Source: Apostichopus japonicus (taxonomy: Eukaryota; Echinodermata; Holothuroidea; Aspidochirotida; Stichopodidae). Taken from it: DNA of 64,000 nt. Below the pieces are notes generated by a model. The model saw nothing but the letters and a program-made list of their open reading frames with translations. It did not search any database and was not told the origin of the DNA. This document shows, piece by piece, positions 1-63,587 of this stretch (its first letter is position 1; each line of letters starts with the position of its first letter). Made by a program: the position numbers and the translations under genes. The stretch lies in the NCBI RefSeq assembly GCF_037975245.1, contig NC_092576.1, positions 4,982,501 through 5,046,500 of the forward strand, read 5' to 3'.

Positions 1-356
1 AACTGGAATTAAAATATGCTCATTTCCTGGCAACGATTAAACCCCCAATCGATGTCCTTCCCCTCCCCTTCCCCCTCATATTATGTGTATGTACCAGAAA
101 TGTCTGGCACCATGGTATTTTCATACTTGAAGCAGGCAGTTATGTCATATTTACGATATACCTCTGATATTTGCCATAGCCAAAAGGAGTTATTGTCATT
201 GACATCTGACCCAGAGTGGCAATGTATCACAAGTACAGAACATCAGACAGTAATATTCCATTCTCGACTCATGTATACGCCACGATGTTTGAAGGCCGCC
301 AGCTTTAAGAGAAGCTGCCAAAACACGTTTTGTGCTCCCCCTGCCCCCCCCCTTCA

Positions 357-360
<4 letters not shown>
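1..360. repeat. End of a preceding duplication unit (spacer between a B gene and an A gene)
   Basis: This stretch is nearly identical to 40,004-40,363 and 62,500-62,856, where it lies just 5' of the B-type receptor genes, which read leftward. The window therefore opens in the upstream flank of a B gene lying outside it. An ORF of 114 codons is open in all three copies, but the few differences I see between copies change amino acids, and there is no recognisable domain or splice context. I treat it as non-coding spacer or promoter flank. Confidence 0.75.

Positions 361-394
<34 letters not shown>
361..394. repeat. (TA)n microsatellite, left half of the split junction tract
   Basis: A pure TA run. 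In the paralogous junctions at 40,364-40,431 and 62,857-62,895 the same tract is continuous into the A-gene 3' flank. Here it stops at about 394 and resumes at 17,703, so it marks the insertion site of the 17.3 kb block. Confidence 0.85.
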
Positions 395-396
<2 letters not shown>

Positions 397-700
397 ACTA
401 AATTATGTCATTAGGGGACAAACACTCGGAAAAAAATGTAATTTAGGAGACAATTTTCATTTCAGGAGACATTGTTTTGTCTCCGAAGTTCTTTCAGATG
501 ATATCTCGGCGTTACCGCTGAAATCAAACCTCCCGCCAATACCAGAAGTGGCTATTGCAGCCCGCCAGAGTGTGGAATACTCCATTTAGTAATAGGAGCG
601 TCCAGTCTTCATTACAAGGCAATTTAAAATTGCAAGAAATATACTGAGTTGTTTTCACATTCCACTTTGGAGACAATCATTTTTTTGTGAACTACGGGCA
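395..700. promoter_or_regulatory. Left terminus with subterminal GGAGAC motifs
   Basis: Contains ATTAGGGGACA near 410, TTTAGGAGACAA near 443, TTCAGGAGACAT near 463, an inverted TGTCTCC near 478 and TGGAGACAATCA near 669. The same words in the opposite orientation occur at the right terminus. Repeated subterminal words of this kind are often transposase-binding sites; that role is inferred here. Confidence 0.5.
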
Positions 701-3046
701 TATCCTGCTGTATATCTCTTCTAGATTTCTACAGAATATGTTTTTATTACTTCTATACCGGTCCATAGTCGCAACGTTATGAATATAACAAAATCGTGAG
801 ATATATAGACGATTTTCCGAAAATCGTTCCTATTTTCGTTATGGTAAGTTCTGATGACGTAATTCATCCGTTCAATTCACTAACCGCACTCGTACGTGTA
901 CTAGCTTACAACTTACAAGTGCAAGCCAGGGACATCGGATCAAGTTATTGTGTTTGACCAATGGTAAGTTAATCGAGAAAGAGTTAGTTTAGCATGTCAT
1001 ATACGGAATAAACAGTGATTTTACTTTGACAGAGTAAATTTAGGAGGCAAGCCCAGTGATTGCATCCACCGAACAATGTTCCCAAGCTGATGGCGTAGGC
1101 CGAAGTTATCCTTGACTAACGTTATGCTACAGTTACAATAGGCATATCTACCCTACACTACAGTAGGCCTACATACGGAACTGAAGTGCAGACTAAATGT
1201 TTTATTTCTAAATCTAATTATTTATGATTATGATCATTTTTTATTATTTTTAGTCTAATTCTTTAAGTATATTCATATTTTATTTTTTCGTTATTTTCTG
1301 TTGTGTTTTTTTATAATGCCTTATCTTAATAAATCAATCATATAAACTAAGACAGGGTTCATTGGCATGCATGGATGATGGAGATAGAGCGAATAATTGG
1401 TCACATTTTGGTTCCATGCAGCGAAATGCTTGAAACAATTTTGAATCTTTTTCATACTTGTGAAATTAATTACATCTACTTCGATTACTGTTTTTTCCTT
1501 GAACGGTGGTGCATATTTTTTGACAGTGAAGTTGACTTTGATTTTGCTAGACATTTTGTGTCCTATTGGAATTACCCATGTGAAATAGCTCACATTTGAT
1601 GCTGGCTAAAGAAATTAGGTAGGCTATTGCCTAGTCAATTAGTAGTACTAAGGCCTAGGCCTGTATAGTAACTACATAAGTAATGACTGGTGTTAAGGCC
1701 TACTGTAAGCCTATATAGCGAAATGTTAGGCCTAGGCAGGCCTAAGCAAAGGCATGTAGCACATATACACATAAGTAAGTCTACGTTAGGCCCTAGACTA
1801 AGTTCTAAGTTTATGTGTTTGGCTATTTGCACTTCTACTTCCCTTGTACTCTAACTTCAAAGTTAATTTCAGGGACCAAAGTTGTGAATAATAAGTGGGC
1901 TACCTCATACTCATACTCATGGTCTTACATTCAAAGCCTTGATTATTTCACATCTAGGGCTAATACTCCGAGTCCTACAAACTCCCTTTACCCTAAGTAA
2001 AGGGTTTCTTGTACCTGCATAATTGTTTAGGTCTAGGCTTAGGCTGTGGTGGCTGTAGGGAATCAGAATCTGATTTCAAGGGGAGGGGGACTTAAAAACT
2101 GCACTTTGCCTTGGCTAGAGAAGAAAAATGGAAACATCAAACATACAAAGCTTTGAATCCAGCACTTGAAGCAATATCTCCCCACTGCCCTTGTCCCCGG
2201 ATTAAGGATTTAAATAGGCATTGTGACTTCTACCTCCACTGTTCTTCACTCATGAGAATTAGTAAAAGGGTCAAATGCAGTCATCCCAATTTTTCCTGTA
2301 TTTCAAGCTTGTCTGGCTCTTTCCAACAAGACCATTCATTTGTTTCTGAATTGTTAAATTTATGGAAGATAAGTCCTTGGATCTATATGTCATTCATAAT
2401 TCTTTTATATCATTCTTGAAACATGAAAGTACTTTTGAGGGAGATGAGATTTGACAGGTACAATGTTCTGATGGTTTAAAAGTTAGGCTCAGGGGTCGAC
2501 TGATTATGCCCTTTAAATAAGGTTAGCAGTTATGGTAAGATAAAGCCACTTTCACTATGACTTTGGCTCTGCTCTAAGGGACTTGTATAGGAAGCACTTT
2601 GGAGATTGCCTGTTGTATCTACTTAGACCCTGTGTTGGATACCAAAGTAATAACAAACAAAATTGTTGTCACTTGTCAAAGTGTGTTGTGTACAGAAATG
2701 TCTTTTCATCCATTTTCAAGCAAGGTATCCCCCCCCCCCCCACCACCCGCTCCCTGAAGAAGTCTATGTAAGGCGAACTGCATCGTAGCATACCAATCAT
2801 GTGTGTTAATATGACACTGTTTTTCATATACTGAACCAATACTGTTATATACACATGCGTAGGCCTACTACTGTATATGTAGTGGCAAATACAAAACTGT
2901 TTATCCTCAATCTCAAAGAAGTGACAAATAAAGGAGCTTTGATGCTCATTATTATATATAAATAGAGGTTATGTAACAGTGAAACAGATTTAGGATAGGT
3001 ATATTTTCCTGCATTTATATAAGTGCTTTATCATTTTTATACTACA
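700..3046. other. 5' part of the element, no supported coding exon
   Basis: No reading frame here has splice context or a recognisable domain. Good donor-like sites (GGTAAGTT) at about 843 and 962 could end untranslated first exons. TAGGCCTA-type words are dense at 1,625-1,760. The promoter of the recombinase gene is expected here but I cannot place it. Confidence 0.4.
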
Positions 3047-3047
3047 G

Positions 3048-3163
3048 CCCATAATGACTTGTGAATGTGATGTGGACTGGACAGTCGTTTCAATTATATT
3101 AGCACTAACTGGCATCGCAGCTGTACTGATTTACATATCATTTATACTACTTATGCATCCATG
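3048..3163 (+). other. Probable 5' leader exon with a 36-codon membrane-peptide uORF
   Basis: A candidate exon between the acceptor TTTTTATACTACAG and the donor CATG|GTAAGG. Its first ATG (3053) opens a frame encoding a short acidic/Cys start (MTCECDVDW) followed by about 22 hydrophobic residues. If it is joined to the next exon at 4581, the codon spanning the junction becomes TGA, so the peptide ends exactly at the splice and translation could restart at the ATG at 4593. No later exon could continue this frame. It could instead belong to a different transcript, or be fortuitous. Confidence 0.4.
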
Positions 3164-4580
3164 GTAAGGAACTTTCAGAATTATTCTTTGTTTTTTACCA
3201 TACAAATTATGCATATTTGTTCAACCTATATCTACTATAAGAAAACAGTTTTCAATTGAAAGGGTTGTGTCATACTGTACACAGTATTGTAATGTATTGT
3301 AATGTGAAATTTGTACAGTTATGTGATATCCTACTTCAGAGTGCCGCTGTGACAGCACTAAAGAACATATAGGCCGACTCAAAATGTGTAACACCTACCT
3401 TACTGCCCAGTCCCTAATTTTGAAGATTATTATTGAGATTTAACTGCATTTAGATTTTACAACAAGTATATATGTAAAACAGCAAATAGCACAATCACTT
3501 TAGGAATAATTTATATTTTCTCAAATTAATGGCCTTATGTAGAATCATCTCTATACATAAAAACAAAGGACTACAGTTGTTAGTTTTAAATGTATATATA
3601 AATTAATCCTTACATTGCTCCAGATGAATAAATCAACCAAATGAGATTGTGCACTCAGTGTTCCAGGTGGATATATCCGCCTTAGAGGAATGGTGTGTTC
3701 AATGTATTAGTTTGTAACACCCCGTCCCATGCTGTTTTCATTTCTGAAATGTTTATATTAGAGTAAAGGATGCAATTCCGCAGAAATCTATGCTATACAT
3801 GCATTTGCACTGATACTTTTGGAGAATTTTACAATTGGACATGGCTTGTTGCTGCAAGTAGTGTATAGAGGAGGCACTTGCTGAAATAATAGCTGATCTC
3901 AGCAGTGATGATGAGGGTTTTGCTACTTGAATTCAGCATTACAGTGATAATAGTTCACATTATAAGTTAAATTTATCAAACTAAACACTTTCAAAGTTTT
4001 TCAAAGTATATACCATAAGAATGTAAATTTAGTTTCCAACAATATTTATGTATGTGTTATGTTAGGCCTTGGCAAATGATTAATTCAACTAAAGTAGTCT
4101 ACAAAGTGCAATATTATGCCTGGCCTGGTCCAGTTACATGTGTAAGCTTTGCTGATGTGACAGGCTTTTAAATATGCAAAAATGACTACGTGCCACACGG
4201 TCAGAGCAGGGGTAACTTGTGATGCAATAATAGCGCGTTCAAAATGAGAATGTGAAAGAGACAGTTCAATTTCTCTTCTGTTTCTATGCTATAACCTGTA
4301 AATGTGTGTGTGAGTACTCACAAGAGGACAAAGTCTGTCTAGTCTATGTATAATAACCTTCACCTGACAAGAAAATTTCACTGATTGACAATGACAGGGT
4401 AATCTTTCTATTGTTAGGAGTTAGTATAAAAAGGACAAAAACAAAGAGGAAAATATCACAAGAATTTACAGTTAAAAAGCATGTTTCTGGAGACAGGCCT
4501 CTCCGCCTAGTTTTGTTCAGTACAGGGTTAGGGTTAGGGTTTGATTTAGTTCCAATTCTGATGATTTTTCTTTACTTCAG

Positions 4581-4644
4581 AAAATTGCAAACATGGGTGC
4601 TCCAACAGATGCTCCTCCACCATATCCCGATGGCGAAAAAGCAG
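4581..4644 (+). CDS. Recombinase gene, first coding exon (PPPY motif)
   Basis: After the acceptor TTTCTTTACTTCAG at 4567-4580, the ATG at 4593 begins MGAPTDAPPPYPDGEKA, ending in phase 1 at a GTATT donor. PPPY is a classical WW-domain ligand. The start is chosen because it is the first ATG of the exon and the frame runs cleanly through the next three exons. The preceding exon could not contribute in this frame. Confidence 0.6.
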
Positions 4645-7600
4645 GTATTACATAAAGCTACCACTCATTCATTTAACAGTAACCTATGGAATCATTTCTG
4701 TTGCTCAGAGGTGCCAGTTGGAATGCAGAATCATATATAATTTTTGCCAGTTTTTTCTTTGTTACTGATTTATTACGTTCAGTGATATGCTCACGCCAGG
4801 CTGCGGCGGGAAGGCATGTGTTGGCCGTGCACGGCAGTTCTAAATCCCTCCAAGTACAAAGAGAATTGTAAACATTTCTGCCTATTCTTGATGATTAATA
4901 TCACAGCTTTTACCAAATTTACCAACAAATGGGAGAACAGTTGGGACAGAAGTTAGCTCCAGAATCGGAAAAAGATAGCACCATTTGCCATCTGAGTATA
5001 CTTGCAAAGATTTTCCAAATGGGAGGGGGACACCCCACCACTTAGACCCTTCCTCCAGGACGTGGATCACACAACCTTGCAAACCCGTCCGGCACTCAAA
5101 TATTCCTGAGCACATCCCTGTACATATACACAGGTAGTCAAGGCGTTCTGTGAAAATTCCTAACATGGCTTTGTGATTAAAGTTTTAAATGAAATTGAGG
5201 TGTCATCCATGGTTACACGGTAGTGTTGCTTCTGACTGGCCCCCCCCTCACCCCACAACCTCATCCCTAGCCTAGCAGGTAAATGGATCACCACCAACTA
5301 TGGTCTGGATAGTACAGTTGGTAGAGCATATGACTCGTTATCATGAGGTCACTCTGGTTCGGAAACGTGTTTTCGCTCAACTCTTTCTCCATGGTGTGTA
5401 TAAATTTTATCAAGTCAGATTTTCTGTTAGAATCTGTAGGTGGTCAATTTTGGTATCGTTTCTTCGTCGTCGATATTTGTGGTGTTTTGATTTTTGATAC
5501 AGATATCGTTTGATAGTTTGGTCATAGTTGGTCTTACTGCGATCGAGCTTTCCGACTTAGACAGGAGTTCTAACCAAGTAAATTCAACTCAACGATGTCT
5601 ACATTGCATTGTCATCGTCAACATTGTCCGCATAATTTCTACCCAGCAACATGTTTTTTTTCTGCATTCATTTTTTACACCCGTTACAACCCTTTTCTCC
5701 TCTTGTGATTACAGATTCACCTTCTTATACCGAGGGCACGGCTTACCCTCCTCTCTTGCAACAGGGATATCCACAAATGGGGCAATTACCTCAAGCACAA
5801 CAGCCAGCCCCAGGGTATTCGGCACAACAACCAGCCCCAGGGCATCAGGTAAGCATATGTCCACATCCCCGCCTCTCCCCCTCTCCCCACTCCCATCTAG
5901 TTTTTTGGTTGCTGTTTGGTGATATTCCTTTGCACGATATTGATATATTACATCATATACAACCTACGTGGGTTATGATTTTTCATCATACTACTTTCTT
6001 TATCAGTTTTTGCACTGTTGCACACAGGATACTGCACCGCACTGCACGTATATTGCAGTGTATTTCTTGTATTGCAGTATGAAAGTCGATTGAAACCTTT
6101 AATATTAAAAAATGTCGAAACTAGCCAGAGTTTTCTTTTGGTCTTTCTCTTGTTTGTGAATTTGAAAAATGATAAATTTGGGAGACAGTGAATACATACT
6201 GCAGTAAAAAAATTCAGAAAGTCTGTACCAGTGGCGTTTCCTCTAATAAATTAAATGTTACAGCCAAAATATCTTTGACAAAAGTATACATAGTGTCATA
6301 GGACATGGGTGTAGAGTCTAAACGTGCATATATATATGTGACCACCCAGACCATACAGAACTAAAACAGGTACTCACGATTTCAGTTTTTCCCATCCACT
6401 ACATAATAATGCTATAGTAACAGGCTATTGTATATTAAATCAGGCTTTGTAATTATTGCAAAGTTTGTTTACAGGCCTGTGCAATTGCATAGACAGTAAA
6501 TGATCCAAAGCTGCAATCCTCAATTGAATATGACATTCATATACATGCTTTCTTTTGCTTTATGCTAAGGATTCTGATGAAAGCGATGATGATGATGATG
6601 ATGATGATGATGTAAATGATCCACCGTATTGCCTAGATGATGATCAGCCTGTAAGTTTGTGAGGTCGACTATATCATTAGCAAAGCAATAGTTACCAAAA
6701 CACTTCCTAACATTTTCACTTGAACATTTCATTGGTAAATTTTGCCACTTCCTTGTAGACACCACCCTTCTCTAATTATCTAAATTGGTAGGTAGGGTCC
6801 CTTTGAGGCTTTCAGTTTATTTCAAAGTGAGTGTATCGGAAACATGCAGAATCTTTGTATATGAAGATATGTTTGAAGTTTAACAAACTTTGGTTGTGTA
6901 AAACATTTGGTTTGTCTGAAAATGAAGAGCTGGCATGAGCCGAATGGCACGATGTGATATCAGATTACTACGAAGGTAGTCACTTTGATGACTATTTAGT
7001 TGGTATTCAATCTGGAATGCTTATTGTCAAATTGGTCCATGATTTTTGGAAGCTTCAAGTTTGTATAAACATAGATAAATTTGAACCTTGTGTCAATAAA
7101 TTTGTCTACATTTGTAATATTTTTAATAGTATAATGCCCTGTTATAGATTTTATCTATCTACACTTTGAAGTATCCTGTATTCTATTTTATACAGCCACA
7201 ACAGAATATGCGATGCGGTAGACGAAAATTGCGTGACTATGTTTCAGATAGTGAGGACTCTGATGAGGATTGTTCTGATAGCAATGGGGTGTTGCAACGA
7301 CTTGCAAATCTACGTTGCCTAAGAGAAGGAAACTACAAAAAACCAAGAAGAACATGCCCATTTTGCTCTAAATCCTACAGTGAGAAACTGGCAAGACACA
7401 TTGGAACTATCCATAGACACATTCCACAAGTTGCTGCAGCATTGAAGCTTCCAAAGAAGGAAATGGATGAAGCCTTTTCAAAGATGAGGAAGGAGGGGAT
7501 CCTGATGGTGAACAAAGAAAAGATGAAAAGCAGAACACCAGTGTTTGAGAGAGAGAGAAACACTGCATCCAATCAACCCCTTGTCATGTGTGGACTATGC

Positions 7601-10600
7601 AAAGGTTTCTATGTCAAAAAGTGTTTCTCCAGACATAAGATAAAGTGTCAAGGTGATAGCTGTGAAGAAGCATGTACAATACCTGTGTCATTACTAATGT
7701 CTGAAACAACAAACCAAAACAAACTTTTGTCCGAGTTTAGTGTAAACATTTTATACAAATTCCGAGGTGATGAAGTTGGTTCTATTTGCAGAGAGGACCC
7801 TGTGATCCTGAATGTTGGCAAAAGACTATGGGATAAGGGACGAGCCAAGGAAAACAAGAAAACGGAGGTTCGTAAGTCTGTAATGAGTGACATGAGGAGA
7901 CTTGCCTCACTTTATCTGCACTTCAAGGAGCAAAAGACTATCCATGCTTCACATTTTACTCTGGAAACTGGTACATCAAGGGATATGTTTGATCGAAAGA
8001 ACTTCAGCATCCTGAGTGAAGCAATTAATGCTTACACACTAAACAAAGAGAAAGCCAGTATCAAGTCAGGATTAAAACTTGGTATCTATTATCTTCTAAA
8101 GAAGGCCTCAAAGGTGATCAAAGCAACACATCTTGTAGAAGAGAATGACATTGCAGCAGCTGACATAGACAGGTTTGTCTCTGTTCTAGAGCTGAATCAG
8201 AACTTTCTGTTTGGAGATGCTTCATATCAAATAAATATGAACCGCCAAAAGAACTTGAGAAAACCTGCGGCACTTCCATTGGAAGAAGACATCAACAAAC
8301 TTCGAAGTTATACTGTGGCAACATTGAACTCAATGATGAATGATGACTTTATCATCTGGGATTCACACAACTTCAAGAAATTACGGGATCTAACTGTCAC
8401 AAGATTAACACTCTTCAATGCTAGAAGAGGTGGTGAGCCCAGTCGTTTGTCATTGGATGAGTGGAGACAGGCCAGTTGTAATGCTTGGATTGATAAGCAA
8501 AAGGCAGAGGCTATTCAGGATCCTGTAGCGAAACATCTCCTTAATGAGCTCAAAGTCACATACCAATCTGGCAAAGGTAACAACCACTTGGTTCCAGTAT
8601 TGTTCCCTGATGATTGTATTAAGCCCATGGAAACACTCACTAGCAAGGAAACCAGAAGCACAGCATGCATACGACAATGCAACCCATACGTCTTTGCATG
8701 CACACAAGGATCCAACAATCATGTTAGTGGATGGCACGCCCTTAATGGTGTTTGTGATGACGCAGGCATTGACAGCACATCAAATCTTACAGCCACCAAA
8801 AATAGGCACAGAATTAGCACCATCTATGCATCACTTGAAATTCCTGAAAAGGAGAGAGCACTCTTTTTTAAGCATATGGGACACAGTGCAGACATAAATG
8901 AAAACATTTATCAAGCACCTGCTGCAATAATGGAGGTTGTGAGAGTAGGGAAGCAACTGCAACAAATTGATAAAGGTGAGAAAACTGGGCACCATGCATA
9001 TACCTTGGGCAGACAGCTCTGGGTAAAACTCATCAACATGACCATTCCTTGACAAATTAGAACTAGGCATCAGGGATGGCTGTAAAACCTGTGAGGGCAC
9101 TTAAGCTATTAGATACAACCCACCAGTAATTTGAGCATACTGGTCCAGTCATCACTGGATTGTAAGTGATGTACCTCACTCATCATTTTGGTATGCTTGG
9201 GTGTGGAAATATGAAATTTTAGCAGGAGTGTCACAGCACATAGATATGAACTTATTTTCCTACTAGGGTATTAATTGAGTTTTTAGAAAAATATCTAACT
9301 TACTTGTTTTAGTACTTTTACAATGTATTTTTCTTATTTACACAGCAAATCCATCCACGCAAAATGATGAGTACTCTTCCGATGGTGCAGAGAACAGCTC
9401 AGGTATTTTCCAACTAGGGTATTTAATTGAGTCTTTAGAAAAATATCTAACTTGCTTTTTTAGTAGTTTTACAATGTATTTTTCTTATCTACACAGCAAA
9501 TCCATCCACTCAAAATGATGAGTACTCTTCCGATGGTGCAGAGAGCAGCAGTTCAGGTATTGTACAAAATCATGTTGAATCTTTTTTGTAATGAATATTT
9601 TTTAAATTGATAGCACTTTTTTATTGCAATTTATTTATTAGTTTAAGCCTATATGTGTGTGGTTTGGATTTGTTATCAGATTTCAAGAATGCCTTGCAGC
9701 ATTTTATTGTAGAAAAATAAACAGTTTTGTTATAAGTTACATGAGGTAAGGTTAAGGTTAAGGTGGTAACACTTGGTAAAGCGCACATTACTGTAAAACA
9801 CTCAATAGCGCTCAATGGTAGAGTGTCCATTTAAGTCATGTCTACTTCAGTTGAGACTCATGTCAAGTAAATTAAACTTAGTCCAGAAATTCAAACTTTT
9901 AGTCTGAGTCACGGGCATGTTGTTGTTGTTACAACACAAGAATAAATTTTGTTCTAATGATTTAATGTTGATATGTTTGTAATATTCTTGCACTACAGAC
10001 AGTCAGGCAGGCACCATTTTAAGCTCTGAAGCAGAGTACCACGTTCAACGAGGTAATCAAATTTTCTTTAACCTAAAGTGTCCGTGCATTAAAACCAGAG
10101 CATTTTTCAAATTTGTAATGTTACTCCATGAAGAAAAATATACTTTCAACGTGCATTTACTGTGTAGATTATGTACTGAATAGAAATTTAATTTTATTAT
10201 CTAATTGAAATCAGTGCGAGATAAAAAACTTTACATATTGCTGTTCATTTAATTGTAACTTTTAATATGAATTATGTTAACAAAGGTGTTGGTGAGAGTT
10301 GCCTGACAAAAGTGTGAATTATATGAACAGAAACGTGCCTTCTGATATGGTGATTAGCATGTTTCTAAAATAATTTGAAAATGAGACAGTTCTCTAATCG
10401 GTGAATCAACTGATGGAAATGAAACATAGGATTCTAGTAAAAAGGATACTCAAAAATTGAATATATTGAGCATAGATAATGTTTTTTTCAATGTTATTGT
10501 GGACCATGCTTCACATTACATCTCTATATCATGTAAAACACACAAACATGCATACACAAAGGCAGTATCTATTGGTCTGTTTTGAATATGGTATGTTATT

Positions 10601-13600
10601 TAGTGGAGGATACTTAATCACAGTGTGTTTTCATTAGATGTTCCACATTATTTTGTTTGCTTGATGTAATCGATTCATTCAACAATGCTATCAATGTCAT
10701 TTCTTTTATGCAGGATGCAAACGAAAGCATGATGATGCTGGTAAAGTAAAATCAGGTTGGTCATTGATGATATCACTTGTCTATGATAACACAGCTAGCT
10801 GTAGTTTAGTCATGTATATAAGTTAGTATGGCAGCTACATAGTCCTGTTTCCCTCATATAGCTGGTGTGTGCAGTCAAGTTTCAGAAAAAGAACAAGCAT
10901 TGAGGATAGCTTTCTTACCCCTGTCATGGCCAATAACAATGTACCTATGTGGGATAGATGATAGAAACAGTTTATGAGGCAGTTACACCTAAGCAGTCTG
11001 CCTAGGCACCATCTTCCAGTGTTAAATTTTTGTCTCAGATTTGTCAAATTTACGCTCCATTCGACAGGACGAAAATATACAAGATGGAATCAAAAGGATA
11101 CTGCGCAGGTGCTTAAATACTTCAAAGGAATGATTACTGGCACCCAAGAGAAAACCATACCAGGTATGTATTTGTGCTGTCATTTGTAATTCAAAGTTTA
11201 TATAATGGATATGATCATGAAGGTGTATCCAAGCACCCATATTGATAAAAACATACTTGTAAATCAATGATATTTGCAGCCTGATTCTGTGAAAGTTTGT
11301 TAACTGAACACAGTTGACTTTTGGTGTGTATCGGTTACATAGGATGTCATTGTTGTAAGAATATAATTTTTCTCTAAGCAATTGATATGATCTACCAGTA
11401 CCAAGCAAATGACAACTGCAGATTAATGTAACACACTGCACTGCTTGCTATGCTGAAGATAAAGGTGTATATTTCAACTTCTTAGCAATTGCTCTTCTTT
11501 TTGGCTTGCAGGTTGCTTTGCACTTTTTTAGGTTTCTGGAGTCAAAGCAAACTGAAAATTATGGAATTTCAAAATAAAAATAAAACGAAAAATGAGAAAA
11601 TGTAAAACATTAGAAAGTTATCATGAAATAGGTCTCTCTCGCTGAAACTAGTTGTTCCTTTGTAACATTAGAGGCTCATTCGCTCATAATTAACATAATA
11701 TTCATACATAATTGTGCCATGCCAAATCCACGAAGTCTTGTATACTTAATATTGTCATAGAAAAGTCGAAGAATTTACTTTTCAAGATCGTGCCAGACTT
11801 TCTCATCAGTCATTTAGTAGTAAACCTCTAGTTCTATATCAAATATAGTTTTAGAAATGTAGTTGGGATTTTTTCTGCTTGTTTGGTTCCTTGCTAAAAG
11901 CAAATGACCTATGTTTTCAGGGTGGCGTGTATGCGTGACATGTGTTTGTGTGACGCTTTGCTTGTATGCACGATAACTCAACAAGGGCATGACAAATCAT
12001 TACCATATTTGGTGAGTAGATGAACCCTATAGATTTTGGCGCTCATATCATGTATATTAATGAGGTCCAAGGTCAAACGTGAAAAACTCCAAATTGCAAT
12101 AACTTGGCTACTATTAGTTGGAATTTCGTCAAACTTGGTATGATGATATTGGTAGACAGTCTTCACACACTGATATGTGTTGTAATAATTATCATGCATA
12201 TTAATGAGGGGGCGGGCTTAGCAATATTTCGGTATGAACAGTTTGTATGCACAATAACCTAAGGAATTGACCCATGATTACCATACTTGGTGGGTAGGTG
12301 GCCCATTGTGAGTAGATGAACCCTATAGATTTTGGCGCTCATATCATGTATATTAATGAGGTCCAAGGTCAAACGTGAAAAACTCCAAATTGCAATAACT
12401 TGGCTACTATTAGTTGGAATTTCGTCAAACTTGGTATGATGATATTGGTAGACAGTCTTCACACACTGATATGTGTTGTAATAATTATCATGCATATTAA
12501 TGAGGGGGCGGGCTTAGCAATATTTCGGTATGAACAGTTTGTATGCACAATAACCTAAGGAATTGACCCATGATTACCATACTTGGTGGGTAGGTGGCCC
12601 ATTGTGAGTAGATGAACCCTTTTGATTTTGGTGCTCATGTCATGAATATTAATGAGGTCACAGGGTCAAACGTGGAAAACTCTAAATTGCAAAAACTTGG
12701 CTACTATTAGTTGGAATTTCGTCAAACTTGGTATGATGATATTGGTAGACAGTCTTCACACACTGATATGTGTTGTAATAATTATCATGCATATTAATGA
12801 GGGGGCGGGCTTAGCAATATTTCGGTATGAACAGTTTGTATGCACAATAACCTAAGGAATTGACCCATGATTACCATACTTGGTGGGTAGGTGGCCCATT
12901 GTGAGTAGATGAACCCTTTTGATTTTGGTGCTCATGTCATGAATATTAATGAGGTCACAGGGTCAAACGTGGAAAACTCTAAATTGCAAAAACTTGGCTA
13001 CTATTAGTTGGAATTTCGTCAAACTTGGTATGATGATATTGGTAGATAGTCTTCACACACTGATGTGTTTTGCAATTATTATCATGCATATTAATGAGGG
13101 GGCGGGCTTAGCAATATTTCGGTATGAACAGTTTGTATGCACAATAACCTAAGGAATTGACCCATGATTACCATACTTGGTGGGTAGGTGGCCCATTGTG
13201 AGTAGATGAACCCTTTTGATTTTGGTGCTCATATCATGAATATTAATGAGGTCACGGGGTCAAACGTGGAAAACTCTAAATTGCAAAAACTTGGCTACTA
13301 TTAGTTGGAATTTCGTCAAACTTGGTATGATGATATTGGTAGATAGTCTTCACACACTGATGTGTTTTGCAATTATTATCATGCATATTAATGAGGGGGC
13401 GGGCTTAGCAATATTTCGGTATGAACAGTTTGTATGCACAATAACCTAAGGAATTGACCCATGATTACCATACTTGGTGGGTAGGTGGCCCATTGTGAGT
13501 AGATGAACCCTTTTGATTTTGGTGCTCATATCATGAATATTAATGAGGTCACAGGGTCAAACGTGGAAAACTCCAAATTGCAATAACTTGGCTACCATTA

Positions 13601-13966
13601 GTCGGAATTTTGTCAAACTTGGTATGATGATATTGGTAGATTGTCTTCACACACTGATGTGTGTTGCAATTGATATCAGGGCTTAGCATTACTTTGGCAA
13701 CAAAATTTTGTGTGCATGAATTGTTGTTATTTTAGTAGGGCTTTCTTAGAAATTTCCCTATGAATGGAACTAATGAACAGCAGCAAGAAACCATGAAACC
13801 ATGAAATGTTTTTATTCTGGATTTTCTTTGATTTGTAGGTAGACATGACGTGGAAGTATTTCTCAAGAAATGCAGACTATCAACATCTTATGACTGCTTG
13901 ACCATAAGAAGTAAGGTCATGAATGAAAGAAACAAGTGGCATCGGTTAAATGGCCTACAAGAATAA
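4593..13966 (+). CDS. Ten-exon tyrosine-recombinase transposase of the element
   Basis: Inferred join: 4593-4644, 5715-5848, 6570-6650, 7196-8975, 9346-9402, 9497-9556, 9999-10052, 10714-10740, 11020-11163, 13839-13966. Every junction is GT-AG, phases agree throughout, and the sum (2,517 nt) gives 838 codons plus stop with no internal stop. Domain order: residues 1-62 are Pro/Gln-rich with a PPPY motif; about 63-89 are acidic with nine consecutive Asp; two zinc-finger motifs follow; a YR catalytic core spans about 490-665; a short acidic linker is partly duplicated; the C-terminal domain has RW..., PGR and NER signatures. The likely job is cutting and rejoining the element's own ends. The acceptor at 11,019 and the donor at 10,740 are the least certain; a donor at 10,755 also keeps frame. 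The protein could alternatively be a domesticated host gene, but the filled/empty site contrast argues for mobility. Confidence 0.72.
5715..5848 (+). CDS. Recombinase gene, Pro/Gln-rich exon
   Basis: Bounded by TGTGATTACAG and CATCAG|GTAAGC. It encodes a low-complexity segment with the short tandem repeat QQPAPGY / QQPAPGH, and enters and leaves in phases that match its neighbours. Such segments are usually disordered and serve in protein contacts. Nothing catalytic is visible. Confidence 0.65.
6570..6650 (+). CDS. Recombinase gene, poly-Asp exon
   Basis: A phase-0 exon of 27 codons between the acceptor TATGCTAAG and the donor CCT|GTAAGT. It holds a (GAT)9 run giving nine Asp residues, followed by a DPPY sequence and more acidic residues. 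The trinucleotide run is likely length-variable but cannot shift the frame. Confidence 0.65.
7196..8975 (+). CDS. Recombinase gene, main exon: zinc fingers and YR catalytic core
   Basis: The exon starts after TTTTATACAG and continues the acidic tract. A CX2CX10HX4H finger (CPFCSKSYS...) lies about 45 codons in, and a CX2C...H...C cluster (CGLCKGFYV...) about 80 codons later. The recombinase signature follows in order: ARRGGEPSRL (catalytic Arg, about residue 499 of the full protein), then TKNRHRIST (box II; the usual first His position is not His here, though Arg-His is kept), then HMGHSADINENIYQ with His and the nucleophile Tyr nine residues apart (about 651 and 660). The frame runs on to a TGA at 9,050-9,052, but a GTGAG donor at 8,976 lies in the phase needed for the next exons. 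Skipping that splice would give a C-terminally shorter protein. Confidence 0.8.
9253..9559 (+). repeat. Tandem duplication of a small in-frame exon
   Basis: A ~150 bp block comprising intron, exon and donor is present twice. The two exons, 9346-9402 (57 nt) and 9497-9556 (60 nt), encode near-identical acidic peptides beginning ANPSTQNDEYSSDGAE. Both are symmetric phase-1 exons, so either or both can be used without changing frame. The second has one extra Ser codon. Confidence 0.75.
9999..10052 (+). CDS. Recombinase gene, small linker exon
   Basis: An 18-codon symmetric phase-1 exon between TTGCACTACAG and CGAG|GTAATC, encoding DSQAGTILSSEAEYHVQR. No known motif. Supported by splice sites and by frame agreement with its neighbours. 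Confidence 0.55.
10714..10740 (+). CDS. Recombinase gene, basic micro-exon
   Basis: The acceptor CTTTTATGCAG is followed by a short basic segment GCKRKHDDA and a GTAAAG donor. A second donor, GTTGG after 10,755, would add five codons and keep frame. The basic cluster could be a nuclear localisation signal. Confidence 0.45.
11020..11163 (+). CDS. Recombinase gene, RW/YFK exon of the C-terminal domain
   Basis: Encodes a basic segment with GRKYTRWNQKDTAQVLKYFK and ends in a TIPG motif split across the intron. The sequence context resembles the C-terminal DNA-binding-like tail I know from animal zinc-finger/YR transposases (RW...YF...PGK). The acceptor CTTCCAG at 11,019 is chosen because it is in the right phase; the better-looking TTTTGTCTCAG at 11,038 is out of phase with the preceding exon. 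Confidence 0.55.
11930..13690. repeat. ~297 bp satellite array in the last intron of the recombinase gene
   Basis: Five copies carry the word GGGGGCGGGCTTAGCAATAT, spaced about 293-297 bp apart, and partial copies lie at both edges. The central copies are almost identical while the outer ones are more diverged. Short ORFs inside each unit repeat with the unit and have no coding support. Confidence 0.9.
13839..13966 (+). CDS. Recombinase gene, terminal exon
   Basis: After TTTGATTTGTAG the frame gives GRHDVEVFLKKC, then TIRSKVMNERNKWHRL, and stops at TAA (13,964-13,966). It completes the PGR...FL...NER domain begun in the previous exon. This exon is the parent of the downstream tandem array. 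Confidence 0.7.
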
Positions 13967-13989
13967 TGTGTGACTGTGCCTTATAAGTA

Positions 13990-15375
13990 TACACATGATG
14001 TGAAAGGTTTTTTTTTTAAAGAAATGCAGACTATCACCATGTTATGATTGTTTTGCTACCTGAAGTAATGTCACAATTGAAAGAAACAAGTGGCATCAGT
14101 TACATGGTCTATATTAATAATGTGTGACTGTGCCTTATAAGTATACACATGTGAAAGGTTTTTTTTTAAAGAAATGCAGACTATCACCATGTTATGATTG
14201 TTTTGCTACCTGAAGTAATGTCACAATTGAAAGAAACAAGTGGCATCAGTTACATGGTCTACATTAATAATGTGTGACTGTGCCTTATAAGTATACACAT
14301 GTGAAAGGTTTTTTTTTAAAGAAATGCAGACTATCACCATGTTATGATTGTTTTGCTACCTGTAGTAATGTCACAATTGAAAGAAACAAGTGGCATCAGT
14401 TACATGGTCTACAAGAATAATGTGTGACTGTGCCTTATAAGTATACACATGATGTGAAAGGTTTTTTATTAAAGAAATGCAGACTATCACCATGTTATGA
14501 TTGTTTTGCTACCTGAAGTAATGTCACAATTGAAAGAAACAAGTGGCATCAGTTACATGGTCTACAAGAATAATGTGTGACTGTGCCTTATAAGTATACA
14601 CATGATGTGAAAGGTTTTTTTTTTAAAGAAATGCAGACTATCACCATGTTATGATTGTTTTGCTACCTGAAGTAATGTCACAATTGAAAGAAACAAGTGG
14701 CATCAGTTACATGGTCTACAAGAATAATGTGTGACTGTGCCTTATAAGTATACACATGATGTGAAAGGTTTTTTATTAAAGAAATGCAGACTATCACCAT
14801 GTTATGATTGTTTTGCTACCTGAAGTAATGTCACAATTGAAAGAAACAAGTGGCATCAGTTACATGGTCTACAAGAATAATGTGTGACTGTGCCTTATAA
14901 GTATACACATGATGTGAAAGGTTTTTTTTTAAAAAGAAATGCAGACTATCACCATGTTATGATTGTTTTGCTACAAGAAGTAATGTCACAATTGAAAGAA
15001 ACAAGTGGCATCAGTTACATGGTCTACAAGAATAATGTGTGACTGCCTTATAAGTATACACATGATGTGAAAGGTTTTTTTTTTTAAAAGAAATGCAGAC
15101 TATCACCATGTTATGATTGTTTTGCTACAAGAAGTAATGTCACAATTGAAAGAAACAAGTGGCATCAGTTACATGGTCTACAAGAATAATGTGTGACTGT
15201 GCCTTATAAGTATACACATGATGTGAAAGGTTTTTTTTTAAAAGAAATGCAGACTATCACCATGTTATGAGTTTTGCTACAAGAAGTAATGTCACAATTG
15301 AAAGAAACAAGTGGCATCAGTTACATGATATGACTGTGCCTTATAAGTAGACACATTAAAGAAATGCAAACTATC
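13990..15375. repeat. Tandem array derived from the terminal exon (~10 copies, ~150 bp)
   Basis: Each unit contains AAGAAATGCAGACTATCA and later GAAAGAAACAAGTGGCATC, in the order and spacing seen in the terminal coding exon at 13,839-13,966. About ten units follow it, with a period of 149-157 bp. The copies share substitutions absent from the exon and lack its splice acceptor, so they amplified from one diverged daughter copy. They would fall in the 3' UTR or beyond it. Confidence 0.88.
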
Positions 15376-15879
15376 AACATTTTATGATTGTTTTGCTACA
15401 AGGCTTAATTAGTTTTGGTTATAGGAGATATTTTTTGATGGGTGTGCCTAACAAATGCTTTTTAATGAGATGGCAATTACCATATTTACATGCTCTTTAA
15501 TGTTGGCAGGTAAATAAATGTAAATTTCTTGATGGTGAGGTAACTCACAAAAGAGACATTTTAGCATCTTTTCTGGCAACAGTTTGCACTCTATTAAACC
15601 ATTTTGATTTATACCAGCTTGTTTCATCAGAATTGTTACTTTTTGTCAATTTCACCCATGCTTGTCTGAATTATTTTAACAAGTTCTTTTAAGAAGCTAA
15701 AACTTAGAACCAGTGGAGGTTAGGAAGCTGCATCAGCTGTCTGCTATGGGACATTTTACAAGACAAGACTTCAAGTTTATGTCTCAACTGTTTATTTGCC
15801 ATTGTAAGAAACTTTATAACAGTCCTAATTGTAGCTGTGTATGTTAACTATGCCTCAGTATTGTACTAACAAAACTTAC

Positions 15880-15890
15880 GTAATAAAGTT
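15880..15890 (+). terminator. Candidate polyadenylation signal
   Basis: AATAAA within ACGTAATAAAGTTAAAA lies about 1.9 kb past the stop codon and just after the exon-derived array. It is the first clear AATAAA I noted downstream. Assignment to the recombinase gene is inference. Confidence 0.3.
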
Positions 15891-16129
15891 AAAATATCTC
15901 ATTGGTGTTATTCAGTCCAGTCCAGGCTAAATATAAATACTAATTGATTGCCAGATAGAAATTTTGCTACAGAGTAATTGTTGTATGCCTATTCAATTGT
16001 CGTATATGCTAAATTCTAATTATTTCAAACTTAATTGGTAAATCGAAAAGTATTGTGTGCATTAACACAAGCTTCAACACTGATTCCATATGAACTTATA
16101 CAAAGGTTTCATCTGATAATATAATATTT

Positions 16130-16745
16130 CAGCACAGGCCTCATTGGACACTATATGCATAATGGTTCGTTTTGGCTGTTCTTTTTCTTGCCTAAAATGT
16201 TTGCAGAAATTTAGTTATTGACCATAGTAACATTCGGTTGTTGTTTTGAGTTAAGATTTAAACCCATTTTATATGTTTTGTTATATGGTATGTTAAATGC
16301 CTGTGTGTTATATGTTGAGCTGAAAAAAAAACTTAACCGTATTAGTGTCATCTAATTAGTACACTCAGTTTCCTTCTTGATTGATGTGTATTTTAAATTT
16401 GAACACTTTATGCATAATGGTTCGTTTTGGCTGTTCTTTTTCTTAGCTAAACTGTATGCAGAAATTTAGGTGTTGACCATAGTAACATTCGGTTGTTGTT
16501 TTGAGTTATTTAAACCCATTTTATATGGTTTGTTATATGGTATGTTAACCCATTATATTGAGTTATTTAAACCCATTATATTGAGTTATTTAAACCCATT
16601 TTATATGGTTTGTTATATGGTATGTTAAATGCCCGTGTGTTATATATTGAGCTGAAAATAAACGTTACTAAACTTTACCTTATTAGTGTCATCTATTTTG
16701 TACACTCAATTTCATTCTTGATTGATGTGTATTTTAATATTTAGC
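16130..16745. repeat. Direct duplication of a ~250 bp segment plus short internal repeats
   Basis: The block around TGCATAATGGTTCGTTTTGG (about 16,155) recurs at about 16,411 with the same order of downstream words through TTCTTGATTGATGTGTATTT. In the second copy a 26-30 bp AAACCCATTATATTGAGTTATTT motif is further repeated. No coding potential is visible. Confidence 0.75.
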
Positions 16746-17394
16746 GACAATTAGTACCTCCCATATAGTGTTGCACGTCTTAGCAACCCTCCCCTTCATG
16801 TGCACTTTAACAGACAACTAACCTTATAGAAAAAAAAAACATTCCAAAATGGTACAGTGCATGCAATTCCAATATATTAAGAGCCTCTTTTTGTTGGTCG
16901 CTATTTCTTCACTTTTGTACAGATGTGTACCCACATACAAATATTCCTCTCCATTGAGGTACTCAGCTGTTGTCTGGTCATTTCATAAAATAATAAATCA
17001 CGCGACGAAAAATCTTTACTCTTAACAGTGTAACAAATTATGAATAAATGAAGGGACTTCAATCCCTAGTTGCGTATGTTGAGTTGGAACTCCGGAGTAT
17101 CGGTGAATTCGTATTTAGTGGTGAAGAGTATAAAAAGCATACCAGCTAAGTCCGAGGTAAAAGAAACGATCAATTCCGCGTACAAATAAACTGCTATTTA
17201 TAATGTTGGGTAGGCTTAATTTGTTACGTCTATTACGGTCCATTTAATCAAGGAGGGCGTGGGCCTTGCGGACACTCAAAATGAAAACAAATTCTTTGTA
17301 TTCGTTACGCTTCCATAACGATCGTTTACGTCTATTATAAAAACGTAATAGTGAACAGTTTGGAATAGATATACGGAAATCACAATATATATTT

Positions 17395-17700
17395 TAATAT
17401 TAAGTTTGCTTCTTAGGAGACGTCTCCTTAATATGCCTTTCTTCATAAAATGTCTCCCAAAAGAAGGAATTGCAATAAAAAAAAAAAATTGGGAGACAAA
17501 ATAACACTACAGAGAGTTATATATTTGGTCCATTCCTTTATGATCGTATTTTTTTTGTAGCTATTGAGACATAACCTTGCAAGCTAAAATGCATAAAATT
17601 TTAACTCGCTGGGCATTTCGTTCAAGATTTATGCAACATATACAATATTGTCTCCCATATATCATATTATAATCATTGTCTCCTAATGGTACAATAAAGT

Positions 17701-17701
<1 letters not shown>
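17395..17701. promoter_or_regulatory. Right terminus with GGAGAC/GTCTCC motifs
   Basis: Contains TTAGGAGACGTCTCCTTAAT (a palindromic pair near 17,415), TGTCTCCCAA near 17,450, GGGAGACAAA near 17,490, TGTCTCCCAT near 17,649 and TGTCTCCTAATGG near 17,678. The outermost part is the inverted partner of the left end. The next base is TA repeat. Confidence 0.5.
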
Positions 17702-17702
<1 letters not shown>

Positions 17703-17746
<44 letters not shown>

Positions 17747-17757
17747 ATATATATATT
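17703..17757. repeat. (TA)n microsatellite, right half of the split junction tract
   Basis: TA run ending in TATATGATATATATATATTT, the same end as the tract at 40,364-40,431 and the one at 62,857-62,895. It continues directly into the A-gene 3' flank. Confidence 0.85.
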
Positions 17758-40003: not shown

Positions 40004-40359
40004 AACTGGAATTAAAATATGCTCATTTCCTGGCAACGATTAAACCCCCAATCGATGTCCTTCCCCTCCCCTTCCCCCTCATATTATGTGTATGTACCAG
40101 AAATGTCTCGCACCATGGTATTTTCATACTTGAAGCAGGCAGTTATGTCATATTTACGATATACCTCTGATATTTGCCATAGCCAAAAGGAGTTATTGTC
40201 ATTGACATCTGACCCAGAGTGGCAATGTATCACAAGTACAGAACATCAGACAGTAATATTCCATTCTCGACTCATGTATACGCCACGATGTTTGAAGGCC
40301 GCCAGCTTTAAGAGAAGCTGCCAAAACACGTTTTGTGCTCCCCCTGCCCCCCCCCTTCA

Positions 40360-40419
<60 letters not shown>

Positions 40420-40431
40420 ATATATATATTT
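40004..40431. repeat. Unit 1 / unit 2 junction with uninterrupted (TA)n (empty site)
   Basis: 40,004-40,363 matches 1-360, and the TA tract 40,364-40,431 runs straight into the A2 3' flank with the TATATGATATATATA end. This is the empty-site equivalent of the 17.3 kb insertion. Confidence 0.85.
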
Positions 40432-40469
40432 TAGAAGTGTTTAGTTAGTATGCATTGTCCCGTTAGTGA

Positions 40470-40565
40470 AATGCTCTTCTGTAATATATACAGTTCGGGG
40501 TTTTCTTTCTTTTCAACTGCCTCTTGTAGCTTTAGTTAGCTCTTTATCTCTTTGAGGGTCATCTC
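40470..40565 (-). pseudogene. Relic A-type tail exon, unit 2 copy
   Basis: Equivalent to 17,791-17,885 and nearly identical to it, with the same broken frame. Confidence 0.5.
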
Positions 40566-40864
40566 TCTGATTTTTTTCATGTTCTATGGTTGCACTCTCT
40601 TTTCCTCAATGCAACAAAGCACGTTGTCAGCTAATTAGTATTCAAAGGTATTTGATATATATATAGAAGAAATATATGTTTACACCCGTTATCCGTATGC
40701 TTGGCAGGAAATGAATGTTTTTTTCATGTTTATCTTAATGCAAACTGTATCGTGTGAAGATAGTTTCAACTTTTCGTTTATAACATAACAAATGTGAAAA
40801 ATAATCAAACAACTACAACAAAAGTTCCTATTCTTGACTTTACATATGTTTTTAATAGTCTTGG

Positions 40865-43800
40865 TTATAATGAAATCTTTTGGTAATATACACAGTTCGG
40901 ATTCTCTCTGTATATCTGCTTGTTGTAGTTTTCATTGGGCTGTTCCATCTCCTGATACTCGGGAATGTCGTTAGGTGCTGTCGCATGATCGCTAAAATAA
41001 CCATGTGTTACGGCTTTGTGACATTCAGTTGTCATAACTTGAGCTGATGGACTCATTGGTTGCGGTTCATTGTTGATCGTGGTTACGTCTGTAGTCGAGC
41101 ATTGTGGGGTATTCCTGCGAATTAATAATAATATAATTATTCATATCACGTCTGATAAAGCTTGAGAAGATGATTTGCAGAGGCAACACGGTAATGAAAC
41201 AACGCCGTTTCTTCGTTATGTGTATCTAAGATGAAAATCAGAAAATATATTTTATACTGGGTGATTAATTAGTTAAAACTATATACACTACAATACACAT
41301 CATATACACTGGATGGTTAACTAGTTATCACTGCAATACACTATACCACACATCATAAACACTGGATGGTTAACTTAGTTATAACTGCAATACACCGTAA
41401 CAAACATCGTATGCGATGGATAGTTAATTAGTTATAACTGCAACACATTATGATACACATCACATACACCGGATGGTTATAACTAGTTATAACTGCAATA
41501 TACCATAACACACATCATAAACACTGGATGGTTAACTAGTTATAACTGCAATATACCATAACACACATCATAAACACTGGATGGTTAACTAGTTATAACT
41601 GCAATACACTATAACACACATCATTAACACTGGATGGTTAACTAGTTATAACTGCAATACACCGTAACCCGCATTATATGCACGGGATGGTTTATCAGTT
41701 ATAACTACAACACACTAAATACATATTGTATACACTGGATGGTTTATTAGTTAAAACTGCAATACACCACAACACACGTTATGTACACTAGTTGGTTAAT
41801 TAGTTACAACTGCTAACACACTGTAACAATGTCATGTACACACATATGATATAATGTAATTATGTTAACTTCTTTATTTATAAGATCAAATACTACCTGC
41901 TGATGAAAATCCCGCATGTAGACGCTAGCAATATTAAGAGGAAGCAAATGACGGCAACCAATGACCAAACCAACAAATCTGAATCCTTGGTCTCGGCATC
42001 ATCTTGCAAAGAATCATCTTCTGAAACTATGGAGGGATAGAATTATCACAAATCCATGTCTTAACTAAAGTTAATTCAATACTTTAAGAATAAAGTTGAA
42101 CGAGATGATCTTCTTCAATTTTCTGTTCCATGGAGCTTATGTCCGAATCAATGTGAAGGAAACCTTTTATACTGAGCTATTTGCACTTTGGCAAACCCAA
42201 CGTTGTTGTAAAAGCATACACTTAAGGACGATATAAATGTAACAGTCGCATGTTGACATACATAGACTTAATAGTTCATTACTTATTGGATGTTTTCTTA
42301 AAGAGTCCTTTTCTTACAACAATGAATAATGAACAACAACTAGAAGAGCTGATTGTTTCTACTGGTATCCTTGTCATTCAACATTTCCGTTTAATAAACT
42401 TGGGAAAGCATTACTTTATTGTCTGGAATTCCCTCCATAGCTTTCGTCAATGTTCATCATCTGCATCTCATGTTAGGGAAATGTTCATTAAACACAACAC
42501 TATAGATATTGATAATTGATTGATTGATCTACGTTGACTACTTACTAGTTTAACTTTAGTAATCATTGATGATGACCGGAATGGTTATCTTTACATCCAA
42601 GAGATTTTTTTTTAATTTTGCTAAAAGCAGGCCTTAGGTAAACTTACTATAACACTAAGAAAGCAGGAAGAGTTTTATTTTAAAGACAAAACTAATTCAT
42701 TAAGTAATTTTGGATTTAATTTTCGTAATGTTAATGTAGTGTACCTGATTCATCTGAGCTCTCAAAGAAGATAAATTTGATGGTCAGGTTCTGACTGACT
42801 AATTCTATCCCTTGAAACTGACATGAAATGTTGACGTGAGTTCCAGTTGGTAGTAGATGTAATGTAGATTCTGAGTCTGTGGTGTTTTTCCTCTCGTTTG
42901 GTTTGTATAGTACATTGTGTACTTTGGATACATCTACATCTTCACCATTCACAACCCACGTTAGGCTAGCAGGAGGTCTTGATCCAACCGCCATACATTT
43001 GATCCCCAGAGGCTTGCCCGCTATTACCACGTAGTCATATGTACTTTGCAGTTCACTAAATGTATGCTCGTCAAATGACAACGTAAGCTCTGGGATCACT
43101 GAGAAAGGAAATAATCTAAGATTTTTTGTAAGTTGTAATTAACAATTTTTGTTAATATTTTATCACTCTTCTTTCACATATGTCAAGAAAACGTTGAATG
43201 TAGCCATTTTACTGTCATGGTATTTGCTGTTCCTGTATGGTGTCATATTTTACATGTTAATGGAAAAAACAGAGTAATAAAGAAGTTCTCTCAAAATAGT
43301 GTGCTGAAAACTAGACAACCGTTGCCTTTTAAAGTAAAGTCAATGAATCTGCAGGAATGATTTTATAAAACCTTCAAAGAACATTCGTATTTTAGGAGCC
43401 ATCACCTTTGTTTCTAAACTGACTGCTCTTTGCTATTAAACAAAGTACAATCCATATTATCCTGAAATATTACATAGTTTCAGAATTATATTCCTTTTAA
43501 AAACATGTTTTTACACAGAGCTGCTCATTTGATCCATGTTGGACTTTTAAAGCCATTGTTATAATCTGTATACTCTTTCAAAATTTGTTTATTTGATTTT
43601 GTTCTCAATTGTTCGTTTACGAAACAAAACCTCACTTTCTTCAATTTTTGGTAAATGTCTTATTCTCTTTCTAAATCTTAACTTCTATGCTTCCTATTTT
43701 ACTTAGATAAAACTGTACAGATATTTCATTGTAATTTTGAATTTATGAGTGAAACTAACTTGGAATCATTACAACAAAAGCTACATGATACAAAATAGAG

Positions 43801-62499: not shown

Positions 62500-62852
62500 A
62501 ACTGAAATTAAAATATGCTCATTTCCTGGCAACGATTAAACCCCCAATCGATGTCCTTCCCCTCCCCTTCCCCCTCATATTATGTGTATGTACCAGAAAT
62601 GTCTCGCACCATTGTATCTTCATACTTGAAGCAGGCAGTTATGTCATATTTACGATATCCCTCTGATATTTGCCATAGCCAAAAGGAGTTATTGTCATTG
62701 ACATCTGACCCAGAGTGGCAATGTATCACAAGTACAGAACATCAGACGGTAATATTCCATTCTCGACTCATGTATACGCCACGATGTTTGAAGGCCGTCA
62801 GCTTTAAGAGAAGCTGCCAAAACACGTTTTGTGCTCCCCCTGCCCCCCTTCA

Positions 62853-62886
<34 letters not shown>

Positions 62887-62895
62887 ATATATATA
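62500..62895. repeat. Unit 2 / unit 3 junction with short uninterrupted (TA)n
   Basis: 62,500-62,856 matches 1-360 and 40,004-40,363. The TA tract at 62,857-62,895 is short and continuous, a second empty site for the 17.3 kb insertion. Confidence 0.85.
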
Positions 62896-62933
62896 TATTT
62901 TAGAAGTGTTTAGTTAGTATGCATTGTCCCGTT

Positions 62934-63030
62934 AGTGAAATGCTCTTCTGTAATATATACAGTTCGGGGTTTTCTTTCTTTTCAACTGCCTCTTGTAGCT
63001 TTAGTTAGCTCTTTATCTCTTTGAGGGTCA
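62934..63030 (-). pseudogene. Relic A-type tail exon, unit 3 copy
   Basis: Third copy of the relic seen at 17,791-17,885, again with the broken frame. Confidence 0.45.
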
Positions 63031-63337
63031 TCTCTCTGATTTTTTGTCATGTTCTATGGTTTCACTTTCTTTTCCTCAATGCAACAAAGCACGTTGTCAG
63101 CTAATTAGTATTCAAAGGTATTTGATATATATATATAGAAGAAATATATGTTTACACCCGTTATCCGTATGCTTGGCAGAAAATGGAAGTTTTTTTTCAT
63201 GTTTATCTTAATGCAAACTGTATCGTGTGAAGATAGTTTCAACGTTTTGTCTATAACATAACAAATGTGAAAAATAATCAAACAACTACAACAAAAGTTC
63301 CTATTCTTGACTTTACATATGTTTTTAATAGTCTTGG

Positions 63338-63587
63338 TTATGATGAAATCTTTTGGTAATATACACAGTTCGGATTCTTTCTGTATATCTGCTTGTTGTA
63401 GTTTTCATTGGGCTGTTCCATCTCCTGATACTCGGGAATGTCGTTGGGTGCTGTCGCATGATCGCTAAAATAACCATGTGTTACGGCTTTTTGACATTCA
63501 GTTGTCATAACTTGAGCTGATGGACTCATTGGTTGCGGTTCATGGTTGATCGTGGTTACGTCTGTAGTCGAGCATTGTGGGGTATTC
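63338..63587 (-). CDS. A3: tail exon of a receptor cut by the window end
   Basis: Acceptor ATTCACAG and a 250 nt exon as in A1 and A2, with the same YQEM and VYYQKI motifs. It has a few substitutions (CQKAV for CHKAV, YRKNP for YRENP, a final SS for SL). The transmembrane and Ig exons would lie beyond 64,000. Confidence 0.8.

Follow-up and report, generated by a model that had tools for sequence, protein, structure and literature searches.

Does the 17.3-kb block that interrupts a (TA)n tract on chromosome C16 of Apostichopus japonicus represent a transposon moved by the tyrosine recombinase (YR) it encodes, and if so, of what kind? The block lies in a 64,000-nt stretch, GCF_037975245.1, NC_092576.1:4,982,501-5,046,500, which was analysed as a whole and is referred to here as the window; the genome searched comprises 671,581,487 bases in 35 contigs. 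The block is probably an autonomous DNA transposon moved by a tyrosine recombinase and belonging to a large multi-family lineage of this genome, best described as CryptonV-like, CryptonV having been compared by description only. It is a discrete unit, found with fixed ends in TA repeats at four sites and missing from two paralogous sites, and carries one long constrained YR protein with zinc-finger-like motifs. The first-pass annotation of the window had claimed a mobile YR element with inverted ends, and the shared ends at four loci, the empty sites and the YR motifs support that claim.

The boundaries of the element are set by comparison within the window. Positions 1-393 are 99.7% identical to 40,004-40,396 and 97.2% identical to 62,500-62,890; on the other side, 17,703-19,114 matches 40,376-41,788 (96.3%) and 17,714-18,853 matches 62,856-64,000 (97.8%). 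The 17,310-bp block is missing at both paralogous sites (~40,360 and 62,857), where the AT run is unbroken and measures 58 and 32 nt, respectively. Filled and empty sites are thus present in one window, as had been proposed from the sequence at first reading. Since the target is itself a TA repeat, a target-site duplication is not recognisable. The sum of the flanking AT runs (37 + 41 nt) is unlike the empty sites, but simple repeats vary in length and the difference permits no inference on target-site duplication. We also note that positions 17,700-64,000 are made up of segmentally duplicated units of ~22.5 kb in tandem, whose long pieces are 89-97% identical between units, and that a long tandem array with a 10-bp unit is found from 27,935 (140 overlapping register positions).

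A genome search with the left 606 bases of the element returned seven matching pieces at six places. Complete elements are present at four of these, the window, C16:31.95 Mb, C7:17.23 Mb and C16:44.73 Mb, with lengths between the shared terminal sequences of 17,310, 16,409, 16,753 and 20,169 bp, respectively. A genome-wide pattern search tolerating up to 3 mismatches places the 26-nt right terminus at 4 positions, exactly those of the four full copies; a reversed-pattern control gave 0. Three further loci therefore share both termini with the window copy, and the terminal pair is the same in 4/4. Long pieces of the copies are 97.4-99.3% identical to the window, falling to 95.9% across tandem arrays; the longest copy contains extra insertions and has stops in its YR frame. 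Both junctions lie in AT runs of 8 to 84 nt per side in all four full copies. Two decayed partial copies are located on C17; in one of them the left end persists within AT-rich repeat sequence. An additional YR frame with 99% identity is found on C12, where the right-hand sequence is N where viewed and the left side shows no element sequence in the stretch examined. The gene is accordingly multicopy, and not the single-copy gene that the first-pass annotation had named as a possible refutation.

The distribution of the copies bears on the reading that segmental duplication, or recombination between repeats, carried a non-mobile or passively copied segment to TA repeats. In favour of such a process, the window consists of tandemly duplicated segments, with likeness between units reaching 97% or more, but copies are present at three distant places on C16 and one on C7, two sites are empty, and the ends are inverted repeats. 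Furthermore, the copy alignments end at AT runs (window 355-361 on the left; 17,754-17,756 for the right-hand pieces inspected). Contradicted by the precise junctions common to the copies, passive copying is highly improbable. The element is real, recent and well bounded.

The inverted ends claimed for the element are recovered by alignment. The best local alignment between the left 60 nt and the reverse-complemented right 63 nt has a score of 39 over 57 columns and describes an imperfect inverted repeat; this score was reached in 0/2000 mononucleotide shuffles (best 37), and the direct orientation gives 17. The core common to both ends, CATTAGG(A/G)GACAA, is situated 14-16 nt inward from the tip. 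GGAGACA/TGTCTCC is present at 11 sites in the element, 8 of them inside the outer 300 bp of either side. In a typical YR site, 6-8 bp separate a pair of inverted arms, each 11-13 bp long (PMC3212892).

Inverted ends and TA targets also fit DDE elements, and the main rival explanation is a TA-target DDE transposon with Tc1/mariner- or Ginger2-like ends, in which the YR gene would be a passenger or a resolvase. MarCry-1_FO of Fusarium has 16-bp terminal inverted repeats and TA duplications that are ascribed to its Mariner enzyme (PMC3212892), and insertion into (AT)n can stem from a DDE enzyme, as illustrated by sesarmid-crab nimaviruses with a Ginger2-like enzyme (PMC10871703). The element, however, has no second long frame, its YR exon is constrained, and six-frame Pfam scans contain no DDE family, although these scans missed the YR too and are not conclusive. 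We consider a DDE transposon an unlikely source of the mobility.

The sole frame of more than 148 codons in the element spans 7,148-9,052 (634 codons stop to stop), and both zinc-finger-like motifs and the C-terminal YR domain are situated on it without interruption. The main exon comprises an acidic N-terminus with a possible start codon at 7,208, two Cys-x2-Cys...His zinc-finger-like motifs, a helical region and the YR catalytic domain. The exon model was built from two splice-site scans with home-made weights and from phase checks by hand, with the start and terminal exons left unplaced. In this sequence-based model, three candidate coding exons (5,715-5,848, 7,196-8,975 and 11,068-11,163) join in agreeing phases through donor- and acceptor-like sites, and the coding frame departs from the long open reading frame at 8,975, ~25 codons before the stop of the latter. 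Candidate tails 3' of 11,163 are short and unconvincing, and the 11,068 exon has no significant match in the flanks of relatives, which were covered for only ~1.5 kb beyond the YR. Worked out by hand, the phase of the possible exon at 3,048-3,163 is incompatible with splicing straight to 5,715 in the reading frame adopted for that exon; the segment is perhaps part of a different transcript, or not an exon. Delimitation of exons by copy divergence was also tried and failed, the C17 copy concerned having 163 substitutions over ~6.5 kb. The ten-exon, intron-rich gene described at first reading is therefore not borne out: the fingers and the YR domain share one uninterrupted frame, and splice scans with hand-checked phases give three joinable candidate exons, to which a gene finder or a systematic chain search, neither of them used here, could possibly add more.

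The YR exon of the window was compared with those of the copies L020, L021 and L022: synonymous changes number 5, 5 and 7, respectively, against 1, 2 and 2 non-synonymous ones. The corresponding ratios of non-synonymous to synonymous rates (dN/dS) are 0.05, 0.11 and 0.08, the last over 533 codons; all three comparisons involve the window copy and hence are not independent. Values of 0.05-0.11 between copies suggest, at the level of sequence, recent function, as would be expected of recent movement by a working enzyme.

The claim that the gene carries YR catalytic motifs is confirmed by alignment and by structure prediction. An Arg in RGGE, a Lys in the hairpin SGKGNN, T-x-x-R, GH and the Tyr are recognised in the ten-member alignment A2, in which Arg-II is invariant and Arg-I, GH and Tyr are nearly invariant, L024 lacking them. 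The YR catalytic tetrad is R-H-R-Y (PMC3212892), and the position of its first His (His-II) is occupied by Thr in 10/10 sequences compared; the invariant Thr is a concrete biochemical oddity. The Pfam family PF00589 is matched by just one of the ten members. The predicted catalytic domain alone retrieves YR-type matches among unrelated chains in Foldseek and almost uniformly YR matches in VIA-align, and as modelled it has the tyrosine-recombinase fold. The model of the whole protein (predicted template modelling score, pTM, 0.47) was discarded as a guide to identity, all of its PDB matches being unrelated.

Table 1. Features of the element and its flanks, in window positions.
Feature	Positions	Strand	Basis or remark
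Whole element	393..17702	+	17,310 bp in (TA)n tract; two empty paralogous sites; same terminal pair in 4/4 full copies
Left flanking AT run of target microsatellite	356..392		37 nt
Right flanking AT run of target microsatellite	17703..17743		41 nt
Left inverted end	393..453	+	Aligned part 397-453; contains CATTAGGGGACAA and a GGAGACAA motif; 57-column imperfect inverted match to right end
Right inverted end	17648..17702	-	Reverse complement starts CCACTTTATTGTACCATTAGGAGACAA; terminus pattern at 4 genome places
Left subterminal region, clustered GGAGACA motifs	393..692		Putative protein-binding sites
Right subterminal region, clustered GGAGACA motifs	17403..17702		Motif count
Main exon	7196..8975	+	Open frame; protein alignment A1; dN/dS 0.05-0.11; donor-like site at 8,976
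YR catalytic region	8186..8975	+	Alignment A2; predicted-structure model m67dff1beee7b; fold matches
Candidate Pro/Gln-rich coding exon	5715..5848	+	Phase 0 join to YR exon; no counterpart seen in other YR families
Candidate 3' coding exon	11068..11163	+	Starts RKYTRWNQKDTAQVLKYFKG; phase-compatible with donor-like site at 8,976
Possible exon, hydrophobic membrane-like stretch (by eye)	3048..3163	+	Splice-site scans
Block collinear with C19 locus	4540..6168	+	75-91% identity across four pieces; putatively captured from the host
Internal tandem array	12012..13678		Unit ~297 bp
Internal tandem array	13859..15327		Unit ~153 bp

The recombinase is one of many in this genome. A protein search returned at least 77 matching pieces with 100% to 24% identity, located at ~64 places after hand merging with the element's own copies included; as 72 of the 163 candidates were scored, the counts are a lower bound. 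Many of these places have open frames of 600-1500 codons. At the seven next-closest places (L024-L030), the fingers and the YR are covered by one match on open frames of 604-1167 codons, with one stop in one of the seven, so that any introns lie outside the finger-YR part. Two of them, on chromosome C1 (L024:1501-3150, plus strand, and L025:1501-3192, minus strand), are related YR frames, 58% and 57% identical to the element's YR, with a dN/dS of 0.51 between them. Their frames are open (1021 and 604 codons, the longer one containing repeated blocks of zinc fingers) despite loss of the RGGE Arg, the GH His and the Tyr, and by sequence they appear to be decaying or domesticated YR genes. A high-copy sister YR family (L051, L052, L054, L055) has tandem repeats of ~1.06 kb at its 5' side, and the YR frame of L048/L051 runs to 830 codons. 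In L051 and L052, which have 25% protein identity, the right end resembles that of the element by eye and is followed by (TG)n in 2/2, too few for more to be said; their left end was not found, being obscured by the ~1.06-kb repeats.

The element also shares a block of 1.6 kb with chromosome C19. The locus is C19:22,354,931-22,357,543 (L060, L061, L063), and the collinearity covers an exon and both neighbouring introns. The genome-wide search covered the exon of this block: the 44-residue exon at 5,717-5,848 has seven genome matches, six of which are element copies and the seventh C19:22,356,325 (80%). The C19 exon encodes a PPxY-type Pro/Gln/Tyr-rich peptide. In the 8.3 kb examined at the C19 locus, neither the YR nor the 11,068 exon nor either end of the element finds a match, and that to the 3,054 exon is weak (E 0.34). 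Judged on these alignments, the block is possibly captured host DNA, which is its simplest reading, the direction of transfer being unproven. Some of the block is perhaps a dispersed repeat, since a 67-nt portion of the C19 sequence is similar to window 38,428 and 60,918 as well, and the C19 block may instead be a relic of an older element.

Starships are giant YR elements of fungi, in which the captain YR carries DUF3435. A Starship-like cargo carrier, that is, a YR element chiefly transporting captured host genes, would account for the 17-kb size, the YR and the 1.6-kb block with its exon in common with C19, and the element resembles Starships as a large YR-mobilised DNA element with possible uptake of host DNA. 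It differs in its animal host, its inverted ends in a TA repeat and the lack of a DUF3435 match for its YR lineage, no such match being present among the Pfam matches of the A1 (n=8) and A2 (n=10) members. The cargo amounts to just one candidate captured exon, for which the direction of transfer and the partial likeness to a possible dispersed repeat have been noted above, and the six frames contain no Pfam domain above the curated cut-off. A cargo carrier of this kind is distinctly improbable.

DIRS and Ngaro elements share YR integration with the element, and they carry a reverse transcriptase and RNase H; neither was found in the six-frame Pfam scans, whose sensitivity is limited as they also missed the YR, and there is no second long frame to encode them. 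The nearest described kind, by description only, is CryptonV; going by the title of the 2012 work of Kapitonov and Jurka it reportedly comes from cnidarians, whereas the element comes from an echinoderm. CryptonV is a Repbase lineage of YR DNA transposons, some families of which are reported to choose microsatellites as their specific insertion sites (PMC8869645, after Kapitonov and Jurka 2012), and the element shows the same combination, both junctions lying in AT runs in every full copy. CryptonA and CryptonI are likewise YR-only animal DNA transposons, known from echinoderms among others, and PMC3212892 describes them as having no terminal repeats and no C-terminal domain. In contrast, the element measures 17.3 kb, ends in inverted repeats, targets a microsatellite and encodes zinc-finger-like motifs, with a candidate coding exon further downstream. 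CryptonA YRs are similar to DUF3504 (PMC3212892), to which no Pfam match at E up to 1 was obtained in the 8 A1 or the 10 A2 members.

Another likeness is to endogenous nimaviruses, in which YRs with a C2H2 zinc-binding domain accompany telomere-repeat insertion at (TAACC)n (PMC10871703). Both systems combine such a domain with simple-repeat integration, and related YR genes in the 28S ribosomal DNA group are predicted to be multi-exon (PMC10871703). Nimaviruses, compared here by description only, are very large virus-derived crustacean elements with a (TAACC)n target; no viral domain was seen in the element, and six peptide patterns gave 0 matches against viral contigs. The first-pass annotation had judged the element unusual for an animal YR transposon; this holds against CryptonA and CryptonI with their lack of terminal repeats, but it overlooked CryptonV and the nimavirus-type YRs. 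CryptonA/I, Starship and DIRS are disfavoured by the features tested, the domain scans being not very sensitive for the lineage of the element.

For a CryptonV-like transposon moved by its own recombinase, a path of movement can be proposed. The recombinase would bind the inverted end repeats, with the zinc fingers perhaps contacting the subterminal GGAGACA motifs. The element would then be excised as a circle, in which the junction is a short TA core between inverted arms. The TA core of the circle would recombine with a chromosomal (TA)n tract, and core homology would confer target specificity and leave no diagnostic target-site duplication. The element may also have acquired the 1.6-kb block that it has in common with C19, in part or entirely, from host DNA.

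It is also conceivable, though we hold it to be rather unlikely, that the element represents a separate, unrecognised superfamily of animal YR elements outside all Cryptons, an animal counterpart of the fungal Starships. Such a superfamily would be marked by a protein joining zinc fingers to a YR, by Thr in place of the catalytic His-II, by paired inverted ends around a TA/TG core and by homing to microsatellites. Its recombinase genes would have several exons and would themselves take up exons of the host, the latter on the basis that a phase 0 join is possible between the C19-related exon and the YR exon. The unusual traits of the CryptonV-like transposon are its size, its inverted ends and the possible exon uptake, and it is not a new class on present evidence.

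No account of the element was found in the open PMC literature, and the boundaries of Crypton-type elements are hard to characterise, according to PMC3212892. Here the ends are fixed by two empty sites on one contig and by three more full copies and, together with a constrained recombinase and a simple-repeat target, they make recognition, circularisation and repeat choice of an animal YR transposon directly testable. A recombinase that homes to repeats also merits attention as an enzyme for delivery, and the element, as a member of a little-described class of animal transposons, is unusually large and complete.

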